DNA of 64,000 nucleotides, taken from contig NZ_CP013015.1 in NCBI RefSeq assembly GCF_001577525.1, positions 1,879,751-1,943,750 on the forward strand. The letters are read 5' to 3'. This stretch comes from Candidatus Desulfofervidus auxilii (GTDB lineage Bacteria > Desulfobacterota > Desulfofervidia > Desulfofervidales > Desulfofervidaceae). Made by a program: the position numbers and the translations under genes. Under the pieces are notes generated by a model. That model was not told where the DNA came from. It searched no databases and worked only from the letters and a program-made list of their open reading frames with translations. This document shows, piece by piece, positions 5,350 through 61,335 of the stretch. Numbering within the stretch: position 1 is the first letter of the stretch; every line of letters begins with the position of its first letter.

Positions 5350-5475
5350 GAAAGAGGTCAAGTCCAAAATCCGCGATTGATTTTTTATTCTAACGTCTCC
5401 GTTCGCAGACAGGTTTTAGGACTTTTGCAGGAGATTTTTTTGGGGAAATTTGGGGTCAAACCTACAAAATACATT
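5350..5475. repeat. Dispersed intergenic repeat fragments
   Basis: GGTCAAGTCCAAAATCCGC and GATTGATTTTT at about 5355-5385 recur near 57108-57145 and, inverted, near 9085-9105. The segment AAATTTGGGGTCAAACCTAC at about 5449-5468 recurs inverted at 61305-61330. These are two modules of the mosaic intergenic family. A 60-codon open frame across this stretch has no protein-like features. Confidence 0.5.
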
Positions 5476-5583
5476 TAATTGCCCCCTAAGTTAGCTGCAA
5501 TAAACTCTTACAAAATTGTTATGAAATTGTCAACTTTTTTCAAAAACCACCGACTGCCAACTAATCTATGCTGATTATGTAGC

Positions 5584-8898: not shown

Positions 8899-9110
8899 AA
8901 TGCTTGATACTTAAAAATCGCAGTAACTTTAAAAGAAAGCCCACCTGCCTGTGCTACGCCTGCCTGCGCAGACAGGCAAATGTAGTAAAATAAAGCAAAT
9001 TTTTTAAAAATAGCTTCACCTAAAAGGTGAAACAACAAACACCAAAGGTTATAAAAGGAGCACTCGCTGCGGTTGGAATTTTATCCAAAAATCAATCGCT
9101 GTTTTGGGAG
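8899..9110 (-). repeat. Composite intergenic repeat with palindromic insert
   Basis: Read on the minus strand, this spacer matches 27958-28076 over about 110 bp (CACCTTTTAGGTGAAGCTA, then TTTGCTTTATTTTACTAC, then CTTTTAAAGTTA). Its other end matches 51427-51520 (AACACCAAAGGTTATAA, GGTTGGAATTTTATCC). The CCTGCC/GGCAGG palindrome occupies about 8942-8979. The repeat fills the whole gap between the convergent barrel and tatD genes. Confidence 0.75.
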
Positions 9111-9869
9111 TTAACCAAGATTGAACAGCTTTTTGGCGTTTTCGGTGGTTTTTAAAGCAACCTGTTTTAAACTCACTTCTTTTATATCTGCCACTTTTTG
9201 GGCAGTATAATGCAAAAAAGCAGGCTCGTTTTGCTTGCCTCTCATAGGCACAGGGGCAAGAAAAGGGGCATCGGTCTCTAAAAGGAGGGATTCCAGAGGG
9301 GTCTTTTTTACTACTTGTTTAAGTTTAGTAGACTTGGGGAAAGTAACTATCCCAGGGATGGAAATATAAAAACCAGCCTTGATACATTTTTCTGCAAAGG
9401 AAACATCTCCAGGGAAACAATGCCAAACACCTTTACAGGATAGTCCTTCTGTTTCTACCAATATTTGCCAGGTTTCTGAAATAGCCTCTCGGCAATGAAT
9501 AACAATGGGTTTCCCTAGTTTCTGAGCTAGTTTAATTTGTCTTTTAAAGGCATTTATTTGAATCTCTCTAGGAGATAAATTCCGATAAAAGTCTAGGCCA
9601 ATTTCTCCAATGGCTACTACTTTTGGATGGGAGGCTAGAATTTCTAATTCTTTATAAACTTCGTCTGTTGATGTTTTTGCCTCATGGGGATGCACTCCCA
9701 CTGTTGCCCATACAAAATTATAGGTTTCTGCTATTTCCACTGCCTTTCTGCTGGTTTTTAAATCAATGCCTATAGTTACAATAAAATTCACCTGATTTTC
9801 CTTGGCCCGCTGTAGTGCCCCCTTTAAGTCTTTAAGCATATCTAAGTGACAATGAGTATCAATGAGCAT
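9111..9869 (-). CDS. tatD: TatD-family metal-dependent hydrolase
   Basis: A 252-residue TIM-barrel hydrolase of the TatD family, with 3'-5' DNase activity in characterised members. Metal ligands are seen at the N-terminus (DTHCHLDM), the central Glu in AIGEIGLDFYR, HCREA, and the C-terminal ETDAPFLAP motif. The length is normal. Its ATG overlaps the stop of the upstream M23 peptidase gene by one base, so the two are translationally coupled. Confidence 0.93.
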   Translation of the reverse strand: MLIDTHCHLDMLKDLKGALQRAKENQVNFIVTIGIDLKTSRKAVEIAETYNFVWATVGVHPHEAKTSTDEVYKELEILASHPKVVAIGEIGLDFYRNLSPREIQINAFKRQIKLAQKLGKPIVIHCREAISETWQILVETEGLSCKGVWHCFPGDVSFAEKCIKAGFYISIPGIVTFPKSTKLKQVVKKTPLESLLLETDAPFLAPVPMRGKQNEPAFLHYTAQKVADIKEVSLKQVALKTTENAKKLFNLG

Positions 9870-12145: not shown

Positions 12146-12207
12146 CTTTCACCTCTGTTGTTTCTAAAGTAATTCCTTCCAGTAAGGATGTCAAGAAATA
12201 TCAAATC

Positions 12208-12560
12208 AGGACTTTCCCCAGAATTTTTAAAAGCTTTCTAAAAAGAAAGATAAGGTAAGCTCCTCAAATCCGTAATAACTTTAAAAGAAAACGGTCAAAT
12301 ATAGTAACTGACCTTACGCACAGTATGATAACATGAAAAAGTTGTGCACCTCTAGTAGTATGATAATTGTTTTTTCAATTTTAAGCCATAACATTATAAA
12401 AAACCATTTTTTAAGGGTTGTGGTCAAAAAACTTTTTTCCTTTCAACCAACTCTACTTTTTAAAAAGGTTAGACGTATTTCCTTATTCCACTTATTGAAC
12501 GCCAAAAATCCTTAATTCATTCCTGCCTGCCTGCCGGCAGGCAGACAGGGATGTTTTTTG
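12208..12560. repeat. Largest composite intergenic repeat locus
   Basis: Bases 12208-12328 match 61149-61268 in the same orientation (GGACTTTCCCC, TAAGGTAAGCTCCTCAAATC, CTTACGCACAGTATGATA). The m1 word follows at 12333-12348. Bases 12395-12432 match 57205-57258 inverted. Bases 12450-12551, including a GC-rich palindrome at 12521-12551, match 19490-19625 inverted. The repeat occupies most of the 510-bp space between the divergent cbpA-like and mreB genes. A 60-codon open frame across it is not a convincing protein. Confidence 0.75.
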
Positions 12561-12652
12561 GGAAACTCCAAGTTAAAGAAAAAAATTTCTTCCCATTGAT
12601 AAAATCTAACAATTTTGGTAGTGTTTAGGAAAATTTAAAATTAAAGGAGTAA

Positions 12653-19484: not shown

Positions 19485-19650
19485 AAAAACATCCCTGTCT
19501 GCCTGCCGGCAGGCAGGCCTGTCTGCCGACAGGCAGGGATGAATTAAGGATTTTTGGCGTTCAATAAGTGGAATAAGAAAATACCTTAAGGTTAACTTCT
19601 TTAAAAAGTAGAGTTAGTTAAAGGAATAAAATGTCTTAATGTGCATCTGA
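19485..19650. repeat. Composite intergenic repeat with doubled palindrome
   Basis: This is inverted relative to 12450-12551 (GAATTAAGGATTTTTGGCG, TTCAATAAGTGGAATAAG, AAAAAGTAGAGTT). The right end, AAGGAATAAAATGTCTTAAT, matches 27938-27958 and, inverted, 51365-51385. The GC-rich palindrome at about 19493-19538 is present twice in tandem, where 12521-12551 has one copy. Confidence 0.75.
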
Positions 19651-27945: not shown

Positions 27946-28080
27946 AATGTCTTAATATGGAAACTTTAACATGGCCACCTTTTAGGTGAAGCTATGTTTT
28001 TAAAAATTTGCTTTATTTTACTACATTTGCCTGCCTGACGGCAGGCAGGTGGGTTTCTTTTAAAGTTATTACGGATTTAG
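27938..28080 (+). repeat. Composite intergenic repeat with palindrome
   Basis: It begins at the stop of the ATPase gene with AGGAATAAAATGTCTTAAT. It matches 51345-51385 and 8920-9040, both inverted. The palindrome lies at about 28029-28052, followed by CTTTTAAAGTTATTACGGAT, which recurs inverted at 12269-12290 and 61209-61228. Confidence 0.75.
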
Positions 28081-30022: not shown

Positions 30023-30440
30023 TGTATTGGTTGGGGTATTTTTTCTTCTAGGAAGTGCGGTATTGGCAGAGGCCTATCCCATAACGGCACAGGATATTTC
30101 TAATGGAGGTACTAGTGGCCTGTTCAGTTCCAGTGTTTTAGGGGAAAATCTTGCCTTAAAGGCAATGCCTGGTAGTACTACTGGTGAACCTTATGATGGC
30201 AAGAATGGCTATAATGGACTGGGACATATTTTTTCTGATCTCTTTAGCAATACTGCTGTTAAAACACTTGAATTTTATGCAGTTCAACAGGGTTCAGGTG
30301 GCTCTAATTCTGACTCTCACTTCAGCATCAACTGTAATGTCCAAGTCGCTCCGGTTCCCATTCCTCCAACTATTCTCCTTCTTGGCTCTGGTTTACTGGG
30401 TTTTGGCCTACTTAGCAGAAGAAAAAAGGTAAATACTTAA
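30006..30440 (+). CDS. PEP-CTERM sorting-domain protein (2), shortened paralogue of (1)
   Basis: A 144-residue secreted protein. Signal peptide (MKRLLSVLVGVFFLLGSAVLAEA), then AQDISNGGTSGLFSSSVLG and KTLEFYAVQQGSGGSNSDS, both closely matching protein (1). About 80 central residues of (1) are missing, so the two ends are joined directly. The PEP-CTERM signal is VPIPPTILLLGSGLLGFG with RRKK. The ribosome site AGGAG lies in the tail of gene (1), implying coupling. It may be functional or a decaying copy. Confidence 0.82.
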   Translation: MKRLLSVLVGVFFLLGSAVLAEAYPITAQDISNGGTSGLFSSSVLGENLALKAMPGSTTGEPYDGKNGYNGLGHIFSDLFSNTAVKTLEFYAVQQGSGGSNSDSHFSINCNVQVAPVPIPPTILLLGSGLLGFGLLSRRKKVNT

Positions 30441-30460
30441 TCAAGCAAACCTATATATCA

Positions 30461-30490
30461 AAGGCAGGGCTACTAAGTAGCCCTGCTTTA
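30461..30490 (+). terminator. Rho-independent terminator after PEP-CTERM gene 2
   Basis: A 13-bp stem (AAGGCAGGGCTAC with GTAGCCCTGCTTT) has a TAA loop and an AT-rich tail. It is part of the shared 3' module of the PEP-CTERM genes. Confidence 0.75.
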
Positions 30491-30640
30491 TTATTTGGCA
30501 TATACAACTATAGTATTATATTTTTAAAAAATAAGACTCTTGAAATACAACTAGAAATAAGCCCTTTGGAGAATTTACAATGGTTAGGAGAATTTGTATA
30601 GTGTATGAAGGATTTATCTCTAAGTTAAAGGAGGGTAAAG

Positions 30641-31381
30641 ATGAAGAAGTTTTTCTTGATGCTACTGGCAGTGAGTACATTTATTTGGAGTGGTAGTGTT
30701 TTGGCCTATACTATTGATGATACTGTTAACGTCGGAAAGGGCACCACATTAGGTAGTGAATCAAGTGCTAGTGAATGGCTTGACTATATAGGAGACCACT
30801 TTGACACTGAAGGTATAGATGTGAACATGACAGGGAGTAATATAATTATTACCATGTACACTAATTTTGATGGTTTATACACTTATAGTGGAGATAACTT
30901 CTACGCAGCAGACCTGGGGCTTGATTTAAACCTGGATGGGACATATGAGTATGGAGTTGTTTTAACGCATGGTACAGGAGGAGACCAAGATTATTCAGCA
31001 GCACTTTACAAAGATGGGACATGGAACTCGTCTTATGATGTCTTGGAAGGTAAAACTATAAATGATCTCTACTATGGTGAATTTTATCCTGAACCTTCAA
31101 GTAGCCGTGAGGCATGGGTAAAGATGGAAGGCGGCAGTTATAAGGGAGATGTTAATATAAATATAACCTCATCAGGTAGCCTATATGCGTGGACATTAGA
31201 GATAGATAAGACCCTCTTTGGCTCAGATTTAGGCGATAAGATGGGTATTTTTTGGGCTACTGGTACCTGTGCCAATGATGTGGTTGAGGGTGTGGTTCCC
31301 ATTCCTCCAACCATTCTCCTCCTTGGCTCTGGTTTACTGGGTTTTGGCTTACTTAGCAGAAGGAAAAAGGGAAATACTTAA
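30641..31381 (+). CDS. PEP-CTERM sorting-domain protein (3)
   Basis: A 246-residue secreted protein with signal peptide MKKFFLMLLAVSTFIWSGSVLA. A beta-sandwich-like mature domain (VNMTGSNIIITMYTNFDG ... WTLEIDKTLFGSDLGDKMGIFWATGTCAND) is unrelated to (1) and (2). The C-terminal signal VPIPPTILLLGSGLLGFG plus RRKK is almost identical to that of (2), also at DNA level. AAGGAGGG precedes the ATG. The function of the mature part is unknown. Confidence 0.85.
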   Translation: MKKFFLMLLAVSTFIWSGSVLAYTIDDTVNVGKGTTLGSESSASEWLDYIGDHFDTEGIDVNMTGSNIIITMYTNFDGLYTYSGDNFYAADLGLDLNLDGTYEYGVVLTHGTGGDQDYSAALYKDGTWNSSYDVLEGKTINDLYYGEFYPEPSSSREAWVKMEGGSYKGDVNINITSSGSLYAWTLEIDKTLFGSDLGDKMGIFWATGTCANDVVEGVVPIPPTILLLGSGLLGFGLLSRRKKGNT

Positions 31382-31401
31382 TCAAGCAAACCTATATATC
31401 A

Positions 31402-31434
31402 AAGGCAAGGGTCCCTTAGGAGCCCTGCCTTGTT
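31402..31434 (+). terminator. Terminator hairpin after PEP-CTERM gene 3
   Basis: AAGGCAAGGGTCCC and GGAGCCCTGCCTT form an imperfect stem followed by TTGTTTATTT. It is homologous to the hairpins at 30461 and 32193. Confidence 0.6.
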
Positions 31435-31575
31435 TATTTAGCATATCCAACTAAGGTATTATATTTCTTCCAAAATAAGACTTTTGAAATACAACTAAAA
31501 ATAAGTCCTTTGGAGAATTTACAATGGTTAGAGAAACTCATACAATATATTAAAATATGAAAAGGAGGTGAAAAC

Positions 31576-32172
31576 ATGCATTATATGAAAAACTTGGGGA
31601 TGTTTTTTTGCACTATAATTTTAGTCTTTATGCTTGGAGGAGTAACTGAAGCCGCAACTTATACTTTTCAACCAACTCCAGCAGATCTCTATGATTTAGA
31701 TCACTATTGCTATTATACATGGGGTATTGATTGGGATATACCAGCAGGCGAAATCATTGTTTCTGCTTCATTATTTTTTGACGATATCCGTAATTGGAAT
31801 AAAAAATCCAACGACCTATGGGTGCATCTTTTGGATTCGGCAAATACAGGTGTTACTGAATATGGAGATGGCGAAGGCGGGGGTGATAACTTTAGTGGCC
31901 AAGGTATTCTATTGCACCATTGGCAAGACCTTCCAGCATCTGCACAAGATATCACTTATGATTTTGATCCATTTGAAATTGCTACTTTGAATACTTACGT
32001 TACAGACGGGAATTTTGGCCTTGGGTTTGACCCTGATTGCCATTACTATAACAATGGGATTACCTTAAACATAGAAACAGCTCCAGTCCCCATCCCTACC
32101 ACTATTCTTCTGCTGGGGTCTGGTTTGTTAGGTTTTGGGTTGTTGAGTAGAAGGAAAAGGGTAAATACTTAA
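31576..32172 (+). CDS. PEP-CTERM sorting-domain protein (4)
   Basis: A 198-residue secreted protein. AGGAGG lies 7 bases before ATG 31576. A signal peptide (MKNLGMFFCTIILVFMLGGVTEA) is followed by a beta-rich domain with AGEIIVSASLFFDDIRNW and WVHLLDSANTGVTEYGDG, then the C-terminal VPIPTTILLLGSGLLGFG and RRKR. The mature domain differs from the other three, while the tail and the following terminator are shared with (2) and (3). Confidence 0.85.
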   Translation: MHYMKNLGMFFCTIILVFMLGGVTEAATYTFQPTPADLYDLDHYCYYTWGIDWDIPAGEIIVSASLFFDDIRNWNKKSNDLWVHLLDSANTGVTEYGDGEGGGDNFSGQGILLHHWQDLPASAQDITYDFDPFEIATLNTYVTDGNFGLGFDPDCHYYNNGITLNIETAPVPIPTTILLLGSGLLGFGLLSRRKRVNT

Positions 32173-32192
32173 TCAAGCAAACCTATATATCA

Positions 32193-32222
32193 AAGGCAGG
32201 GCTCCTTAGGAGCCCTGCTTTA
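32193..32222 (+). terminator. Rho-independent terminator after PEP-CTERM gene 4
   Basis: A perfect stem AAGGCAGGGCTCC with GGAGCCCTGCTTT around a TTA loop, the third copy of the PEP-CTERM terminator module. It ends the rightward gene block before the convergent atp operon. Confidence 0.75.
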
Positions 32223-32320
32223 TTATCTCTTCTAGAAAGTTTCTTTATCATTCTAAAACCTGACTTTTTAAGCTAAATATTTAGGAAAAATAAATCACTT
32301 AGAAATTCGTTTTATTAATA

Positions 32321-51339: not shown

Positions 51340-51515
51340 AAGGGTGGCCATGTTAAAGTTTCCATATTAAGACATTTTATTCCTTTCAACCAATTCTAGT
51401 TTTTAAATAGGTTAGTGAAGTTAACCTAAAAGGTGAAACAACCAACACCAAAGGTTATAAGGAGTGCTTGCCGCCCGCCTGCCGTCAGGCAGGCAGGTTG
51501 GAATTTTATCCAATT
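51340..51515. repeat. Composite intergenic repeat with palindromic insert
   Basis: Bases 51345-51385 match 27938-27980 inverted (GGCCATGTTAAAGTTTCC). Bases 51427-51520 match 9019-9086 (CCTAAAAGGTGAAACAA, ACCAAAGGTTATAA, GGTTGGAATTTTATCC). About 21 extra bases holding the palindrome (51474-51497) sit between segments that are adjacent at 9066-9074. Part of the repeat can be read as PACRQAG-type peptide, which is an artefact of the palindrome. Confidence 0.75.
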
Positions 51516-57107: not shown

Positions 57108-57345
57108 GTCAAGTCTAGCCCCTTTTAAAATCCGCAATTGATTTTTGAGGTTGAGTATTGAAAGAAAAAGTTTTTTCTTTCTCGCCAACCCTAAATATTT
57201 GTATGGTTGCGGTCAGTTTTTTGACCGCAACCCTTAAAAAATGATTTTTTATAATGTGCGTAAGGTAAGTTGCTATATTTGCCTGTCTGCCCCTGCCCGA
57301 CGGGAGGCGGGTGGGTTTTCTTTTAAAGTTACTACTGTTTTTGGC
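57108..57345. repeat. Composite intergenic repeat with palindromic insert
   Basis: GGTCAAGTC and AAATCCGCAATTGATTTTT at 57111-57145 match about 5355-5385. GACCGCAACCCTTAAAAAAT at 57223-57242 matches 12410-12425 inverted. TGTGCGTAAGGTAAG and TATATTTG (57255-57280) match 12297-12320 inverted. The palindrome is at about 57281-57314, followed by TTTTCTTTTAAAGTTAC. It includes its own hairpin TTGCGGTCA...TGACCGCAA at 57205-57228. Confidence 0.75.
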
Positions 57346-61148: not shown

Positions 61149-61335
61149 GGACTTTCCCCAGAATTTTCAGAAGCTTTCCGAAAAGAAAGGTAAGGTAAGC
61201 TCCTCAAATCCGTAATAACTTTAAAAAAACGGTCAAATATAGTAACTGACCTTACGCACAGTATGATATAAAAGGGGTTGCACAACTTTTTCATAGATGA
61301 ATTGTAGGTTTGACCCTAAATTTCCTATCAGATAA
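61149..61335. repeat. Composite intergenic repeat without palindrome
   Basis: Bases 61149-61268 match 12208-12328 in the same orientation. They hold an unoccupied palindrome site at about 61228-61240. Then an inverted m1 (GGTTGCACAACTTTTTCAT, 61276-61294) and TAGGTTTGACCC at 61306-61317, matching 5449-5468 inverted. The repeat fills the space between rnc and the small membrane-protein gene. Confidence 0.75.

Follow-up and report, generated by a model that had tools for sequence, protein, structure and literature searches.

The locus considered here raises the question of whether a GC-rich palindrome, present in some copies of a repeat and absent from the same place in others, moves in its own right or only goes where the repeat takes it. 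It lies in a window of 64,000 nt (the whole stretch of DNA that was analysed), positions 1879751-1943750 of a single-contig prokaryote chromosome of 2.54 Mb. Intergenic regions of this genome are occupied by AT-rich modular interspersed repeats, within which the GC-rich palindromes are found at fixed places, and the copies in the window are all placed between genes. AT-rich modular repeats are seen in the window at 5356-5480, 8907-9115, 12180-12580, and 57130-57345, part of them with inverted CCAAAATCCG-like termini, and these repeats may make up a separate MITE family. The window also contains, at 30348-32226, three copies of a 147-nt repeat that lie where similar small genes end, with a terminator-like hairpin inside.

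The palindromes, about 200 in the genome, are assembled from a few discrete 20-bp units, of which alpha (CCTGCCTGTCGGCAGACAGG) is foremost. An 18-bp core, allowed up to 3 mismatches, finds about 200 matches per strand genome-wide, as compared to 0 for a reversed-pattern control. I took the census of units from 0.29 Mb sampled around palindrome sites, where most palindromes are accounted for by four 20-mers (Table 1). Single-strand folding and counting reveal a common plan: a 4-nt tag, CCTG or CCCG, followed by a perfect hairpin with a 6-bp stem and a 4-nt loop. In most units, both in this genome and elsewhere, position 3 of the tag covaries with position 4 of the loop (T3-A14, C3-G14). The REP-like layout, together with the strand asymmetry of the units, suggests that the unit is recognised as a folded single strand.

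Table 1. Units, filled and empty sites, and loci considered in this study. Single coordinates and ranges in the second column are those of the window; L numbers denote loci; copy numbers are from the 0.29 Mb sample.
Feature	Position	Strand	Details
Unit alpha			CCTGCCTGTCGGCAGACAGG; 35 copies; imperfect 20-mer
Unit beta			CCCGCCTGCCGTCGGGCAGG; 19 copies
Unit gamma			CCCGCCTGCCTGCGGGCAGG; 15 copies
Unit delta	28030..28049		CCTGCCTGACGGCAGGCAGG; 5 copies
AT-rich modular host repeat enclosing palindrome	57130..57345	+	some copies with inverted CCAAAATCCG-like ends
30-bp compound palindrome, site A filled	57282..57311	+	CCTGTCTGCC plus 20-bp beta-type unit CCTGCCCGACGGGAGGCGGG; exact empty site at genome 1398140
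Single 20-bp delta unit, site A filled	28030..28049	+	CCTGCCTGACGGCAGGCAGG
33-bp compound palindrome, site A filled	8944..8976	-	
Empty site A, ATTTG-ACCG-TTTTC variant	12285..12305	-	
Empty site A, same ACCG variant as 12285 copy	61217..61244	-	
Palindromic insert of 27 bp, flanked by AGGAGTGCTTG and TTGGAATTTTATCC	51471..51497	+	9066 copy has 6-nt CTGCGG instead
45-bp two-unit palindrome, site B (between AAAAACAT and GATGAATTAAGG)	19493..19537	+	nearly empty at genome 248656 and at genome 1665540
Palindrome CCTGCCTGCCTGCCGGCAGGCAGACAGGG, site-B-like position	12522..12550	-	
GIY-YIG gene at tRNA	L262, L150, L158, L172, L176, L193, L243, L246, L249, L268, L283, L287, L288, L332, L334, L344, L357		

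The site that drew attention to the locus, here called site A, is the junction of ATTTG with TGGGTTTTCTTTTAAAG (also written with TGGGTTTTC), and at this junction, as at others, units are either there in full or missing, with base precision. As the preliminary description maintained, related flanks enclose palindromes of different lengths: site A holds 30, 20, and 33 bp at 57282, 28030, and 8944, and its occupant differs among copies, being delta, a gamma-type unit, or a compound form. The same description took the flanks to be adjacent at 12285 (with only ACCG between) and nearly so at 61217. Both of these sites are indeed empty, but they carry ACCG rather than TGGG, and the exact TGGG empties lie elsewhere in the genome, at 1398140, 1654036, and 1074634. 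The interruption of a second repeat module at 51474, said to be intact at 9066, is likewise real, except that it amounts to a 27-nt insert at 51471-51497 as against the 6-nt CTGCGG of the other copy. Two further copies of that site contain 20-bp units.

Clean comparisons come from pairs of sites with AT-rich flanks. In one, CCTGTCTGCCGACAGGCAGG stands between TTTAAAAACATT and GATGAATTAAGG at genome 2038401, versus the same flanks uninterrupted at 248657. Two other pairs differ by 20 bp (900994 versus 111551) and by 30 bp (1966161 versus 637262). Target bases are neither duplicated nor lost in these filled/empty pairs, and flanking microhomology is absent from them. Units are also found within units. 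In 10 cases one, two, or three units lie inside alpha, always exactly between its tenth and eleventh bases, and at least four different compositions are represented: alpha enclosing gamma, beta, gamma beta, or gamma beta beta. The independent nesting events are fewer than ten, since duplication of an entire composite may lie behind some of the cases. Off-centre matches found in the search for nesting are tandem arrays, save a few that resemble fused or truncated units.

The palindromes are probably, on this comparison of copies, a family of miniature mobile units of about 20 nt, each a tag plus a hairpin, and the repeated insertion of a unit of roughly 20 bp is well supported. The earlier proposal that the palindrome itself moves or expands gains support from the discrete 20-bp units, the exact filled/empty pairs, the different units at one site, the nesting, and the head-to-tail arrays in which units also occur.

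The units are not confined to this genome. The exact alpha 20-mer was matched in at least 119 genome contigs, which belong to many phyla; chance alone would yield about 0.5 in 257 Gb (by the arithmetic of this study). Its carriers include isolates of Bacteroidota and metagenome-assembled genomes (MAGs) of Patescibacteria, Nitrospirota, Omnitrophota, Neomarinimicrobiota, Planctomycetota, Verrucomicrobiota, and others, and it is also present in 23 stretches of viral contigs. Unit matches were found in all 26 of the alpha-bearing genomes that were checked, reaching about 190 in G321 and about 90 in G310, both strands counted. Those of G321, a MAG of Bacillota (locus L135), are mostly of a sister unit, CCCGCCTGCCGGCGGGCAGG. 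Within the phylum of the window genome, 10 of 297 genomes have at least four unit matches, and four relatives from its own family have none. A search of the literature for the core sequence returned only unrelated papers.

Alpha sites elsewhere provide a broader view of the target. At 116 sites with different flanks in other genomes there is no excess of duplicated flanks. The base at -1 is G in 67 of them and that at +3 is T in 61, a preference not seen in the single units of the window genome itself. Over 97 sites, insertion favours hairpin loops (mean percentile 0.595, p = 0.002), an enrichment that is significant but weak, and insertion at hairpin loops only was rejected as a rule.

What might move such a unit? 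Tag, hairpin, and the covariation between tag and loop are all reminiscent of REPs, and the units may be imagined as REPs whose RAYT (TnpA-REP) once moved them and has since been lost from the window genome. The preliminary description had looked to a REP-associated Y1 transposase as the agent, an expectation that the genes do not bear out. I searched for RAYT/TnpA-REP in the window genome, the 26 unit-bearing genomes, and 32 chosen genomes of the phylum. The window genome has four Y1 genes, all of the IS605 type (three beside tnpB, one truncated), and no RAYT gene. The palindrome-rich relatives G112, G158, G140, G214, and G227 do have Y1 genes of a RAYT-like type, roughly 220-350 aa long and in several unit-rich relatives numerous, which speaks for the idea, but at the loci inspected in palindrome-rich genomes no units flank them. 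The unit-richest of the 26 genomes, G321, has no Y1 match, and the alpha-bearing loci of other genomes contain just two Y1 ORFs, each more than 1.5 kb from a unit. Locus L320 has a 165-aa RAYT-like Y1 gene flanked by several copies of a different palindrome, TCAGCCCTTTAGGGCTGA, likely a separate REP family. RAYT was rejected as the agent for want of a link in cis at the RAYT loci inspected or at Y1 ORFs near units, and the tag, CCTG or CCCG, is not GTAG. A lost RAYT is an unlikely explanation.

The units might instead be static parts of larger repeats, the filled and empty states having arisen once, by insertion or deletion, and then been spread and mixed by transposition of the repeats and by gene conversion. 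Many copies do sit in shared larger repeats, and one repeat, with 35 copies, provides the strongest case of presence and absence at one position. It begins with AGGACTTCGTCAAAGTAATTTTAACGGAG, and its right end is variable. Sixteen copies are filled and 19 empty (the latter found with a search pattern consisting of the two flanks joined), all at the identical base position (e.g., filled at 166248, empty at 123557); 15 of the filled copies contain one alpha and the other a nested 41-bp form. A 7-bp duplication occurs in six of the 19 empty copies and in none of the 16 filled ones. On a tree of the 35 copies the filled state is scattered, requiring 12 changes, as compared to a mean of 11.8 when labels are shuffled; of these changes, no fewer than three are required by branches with good support. 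The preliminary description had conceded that simple deletion in one lineage might account for the empty sites; for this repeat the tree excludes a single ancient deletion as their source. Filled and empty states are intermingled with polymorphisms close by, as expected from gene conversion, which may contribute to the pattern; filled copies could also owe part of their number to repeats copied with the unit already inside. As a full account, however, static palindromes seem to me improbable: the same 20-mer occurs at many unrelated flanks here and at 116 different flanks elsewhere, one site is occupied by different units, and central nesting is left unexplained.

Replication slippage or template switching at hairpins, lengthening and shortening palindromes in place with no mobile unit, is consistent with the arrays, nesting, and partial units and may add to the compound forms, but as sole cause it is contradicted by the dispersal of an identical 20-mer to unrelated sites and unrelated phyla, and by clean insertions without flanking microhomology, and it can hardly be credited.

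If the unit is mobile, a different neighbour, one that does recur, deserves consideration as the source of the enzyme. In 13 of 119 alpha contigs (from the at least 119 known), a small GIY-YIG ORF lies within 30 bp of alpha, in most cases with a broken 5' half of a tRNA gene between them; in about 105 of the 119, alpha has no such ORF in its vicinity. The arrangement is that of a small GIY-YIG gene inserted at a tRNA gene, with a 5' tRNA relic before it and an intact tRNA gene after it. The window genome has an example at about 204852 (L262), consisting of the 5' half of tRNA-Asn, a 19-bp palindrome, the GIY-YIG gene, and an intact tRNA-Asn. In GIY-YIG loci taken from alpha-bearing genomes, 10 of 10 clear 5' tRNA relics contain a hairpin insertion of 19-36 bp, a rate that is not unbiased because the genomes were chosen for holding alpha, and several 3' relics carry one as well; relics with such hairpins occur in several phyla. 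A search of the literature turned up no description of this combination of GIY-YIG gene, tRNA relic, and hairpin. In L172 (3400-4300), five near-identical 5' halves of tRNA-Arg, each with alpha and four of them spaced 116 bp apart, adjoin one GIY-YIG gene, the result of either serial insertion or tandem duplication.

Insertion into intact tRNA genes was rejected: no tRNA gene spans an insertion junction, and what adjoins the GIY-YIG genes are relics of either the 5' or the 3' part of a tRNA gene. A C-terminal motif, tried as a marker of the tRNA-linked GIY-YIG proteins, failed to separate them. The sequences of the relic inserts vary, and genomes without exact alpha have relics with other hairpins; accordingly, the relic is not proof of the enzyme and may be a place where insertion is favoured or tolerated. 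Nor is the association universal, since G227 has 8 unit matches and, as its sole GIY-YIG match, a 671-aa frame resembling UvrC, and since so many alpha contigs have no such ORF nearby.

The small GIY-YIG nucleases whose tRNA-linked genes carry hairpins are nonetheless the leading candidate for the mobilising enzyme, tentative as that identification is, and the one ground for ranking them first is their recurrent neighbourhood; next comes an HUH enzyme, undescribed or since lost. Mobility of the unit would proceed as follows. A unit, moving as folded single-stranded DNA or as an extruded hairpin, would enter a new site with target bases neither duplicated nor lost, the cutting and joining presumably carried out by a structure-specific nuclease supplied in trans. 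Some target sites are the loops or centres of other hairpins, another unit included, and nesting would follow from this. Units within AT-rich interspersed repeats would also travel along with those repeats.

As judged from the comparison of copies, the unit is discrete, is present or absent exactly, nests, and has spread to unrelated contexts and phyla. The most comprehensive statement would be that the 20-nt units, each a tag plus a hairpin, form one family and constitute a genuine mobile element across many phyla, making no target duplication, preferring hairpin tips, and moved by small tRNA-associated GIY-YIG nucleases whose leader, the tRNA-gene relic, is its most constant home. In its entirety that statement is doubtful. 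Presence or absence at the same spots of repeats, nesting, and the recurrence of the same 20 letters across many bacterial phyla together suggest one of the smallest mobile DNA units known, and if this is correct, then 20 bases of hairpin would be close to the lower size limit of a mobile element, the same one active in many phyla.

It remains to place the units among known systems. A MITE has terminal inverted repeats with a target-site duplication; the 20-bp unit, taken by itself, has no target duplication. The small dispersed repeats of cyanobacteria are very small mobile repeats, 21-27 nt in length and found inside other repeats. They probably differ from the units in sequence and they come from another phylum, and I know of no palindromic cross-phylum 20-mer among them; they are the subject of Elhai et al. 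2008, a study cited in PMC3116915. Rickettsia palindromic elements are longer. They and the CGTC-tagged REPs are short palindromes that bear a tag and for which no dedicated transposase is known (PMC3733652, in which the word "nested" is absent), but the units lack a CGTC tag at one end.

Closer comparisons can be made to two systems. REPs and REPINs, associated with RAYT, are extragenic palindromes of 20-50 nt with a 4-nt GTAG tag before the hairpin, high copy number, and strand asymmetry (Bertels and Rainey 2011, PMC3116915; PMC8266576). The units are similarly short tagged palindromes, in about 200 copies, mostly between genes and strand-asymmetric, but their tag is different, no RAYT is present in the window genome or flanked by units at the loci examined, they nest at the exact centre, and one 20-mer is common to many phyla. 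The GC clusters of yeast mitochondria are GC-rich palindromes of 42 bp within an AT-rich genome; at a given fixed site they may be present or absent, they undergo merger and shuffling, and they are flanked by an AG target-site duplication, with the help of endonucleases proposed for them (PMC4478555). The units are likewise GC-rich, optional at fixed sites, merged, and shuffled, but they belong to a bacterial chromosome, are 20 bp rather than 42, and make no AG duplication. In layout the family is like REPs (PMC8266576), and in behaviour like GC clusters (PMC4478555), but it departs from each in defining features that were tested. It is best read as a family of miniature mobile hairpins akin to both, perhaps moved by a GIY-YIG nuclease. 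If that is true, bacteria would have an equivalent of the mitochondrial GC clusters, for which the mobilising enzyme is a matter of debate as well, and the units would offer a candidate enzyme family for both.
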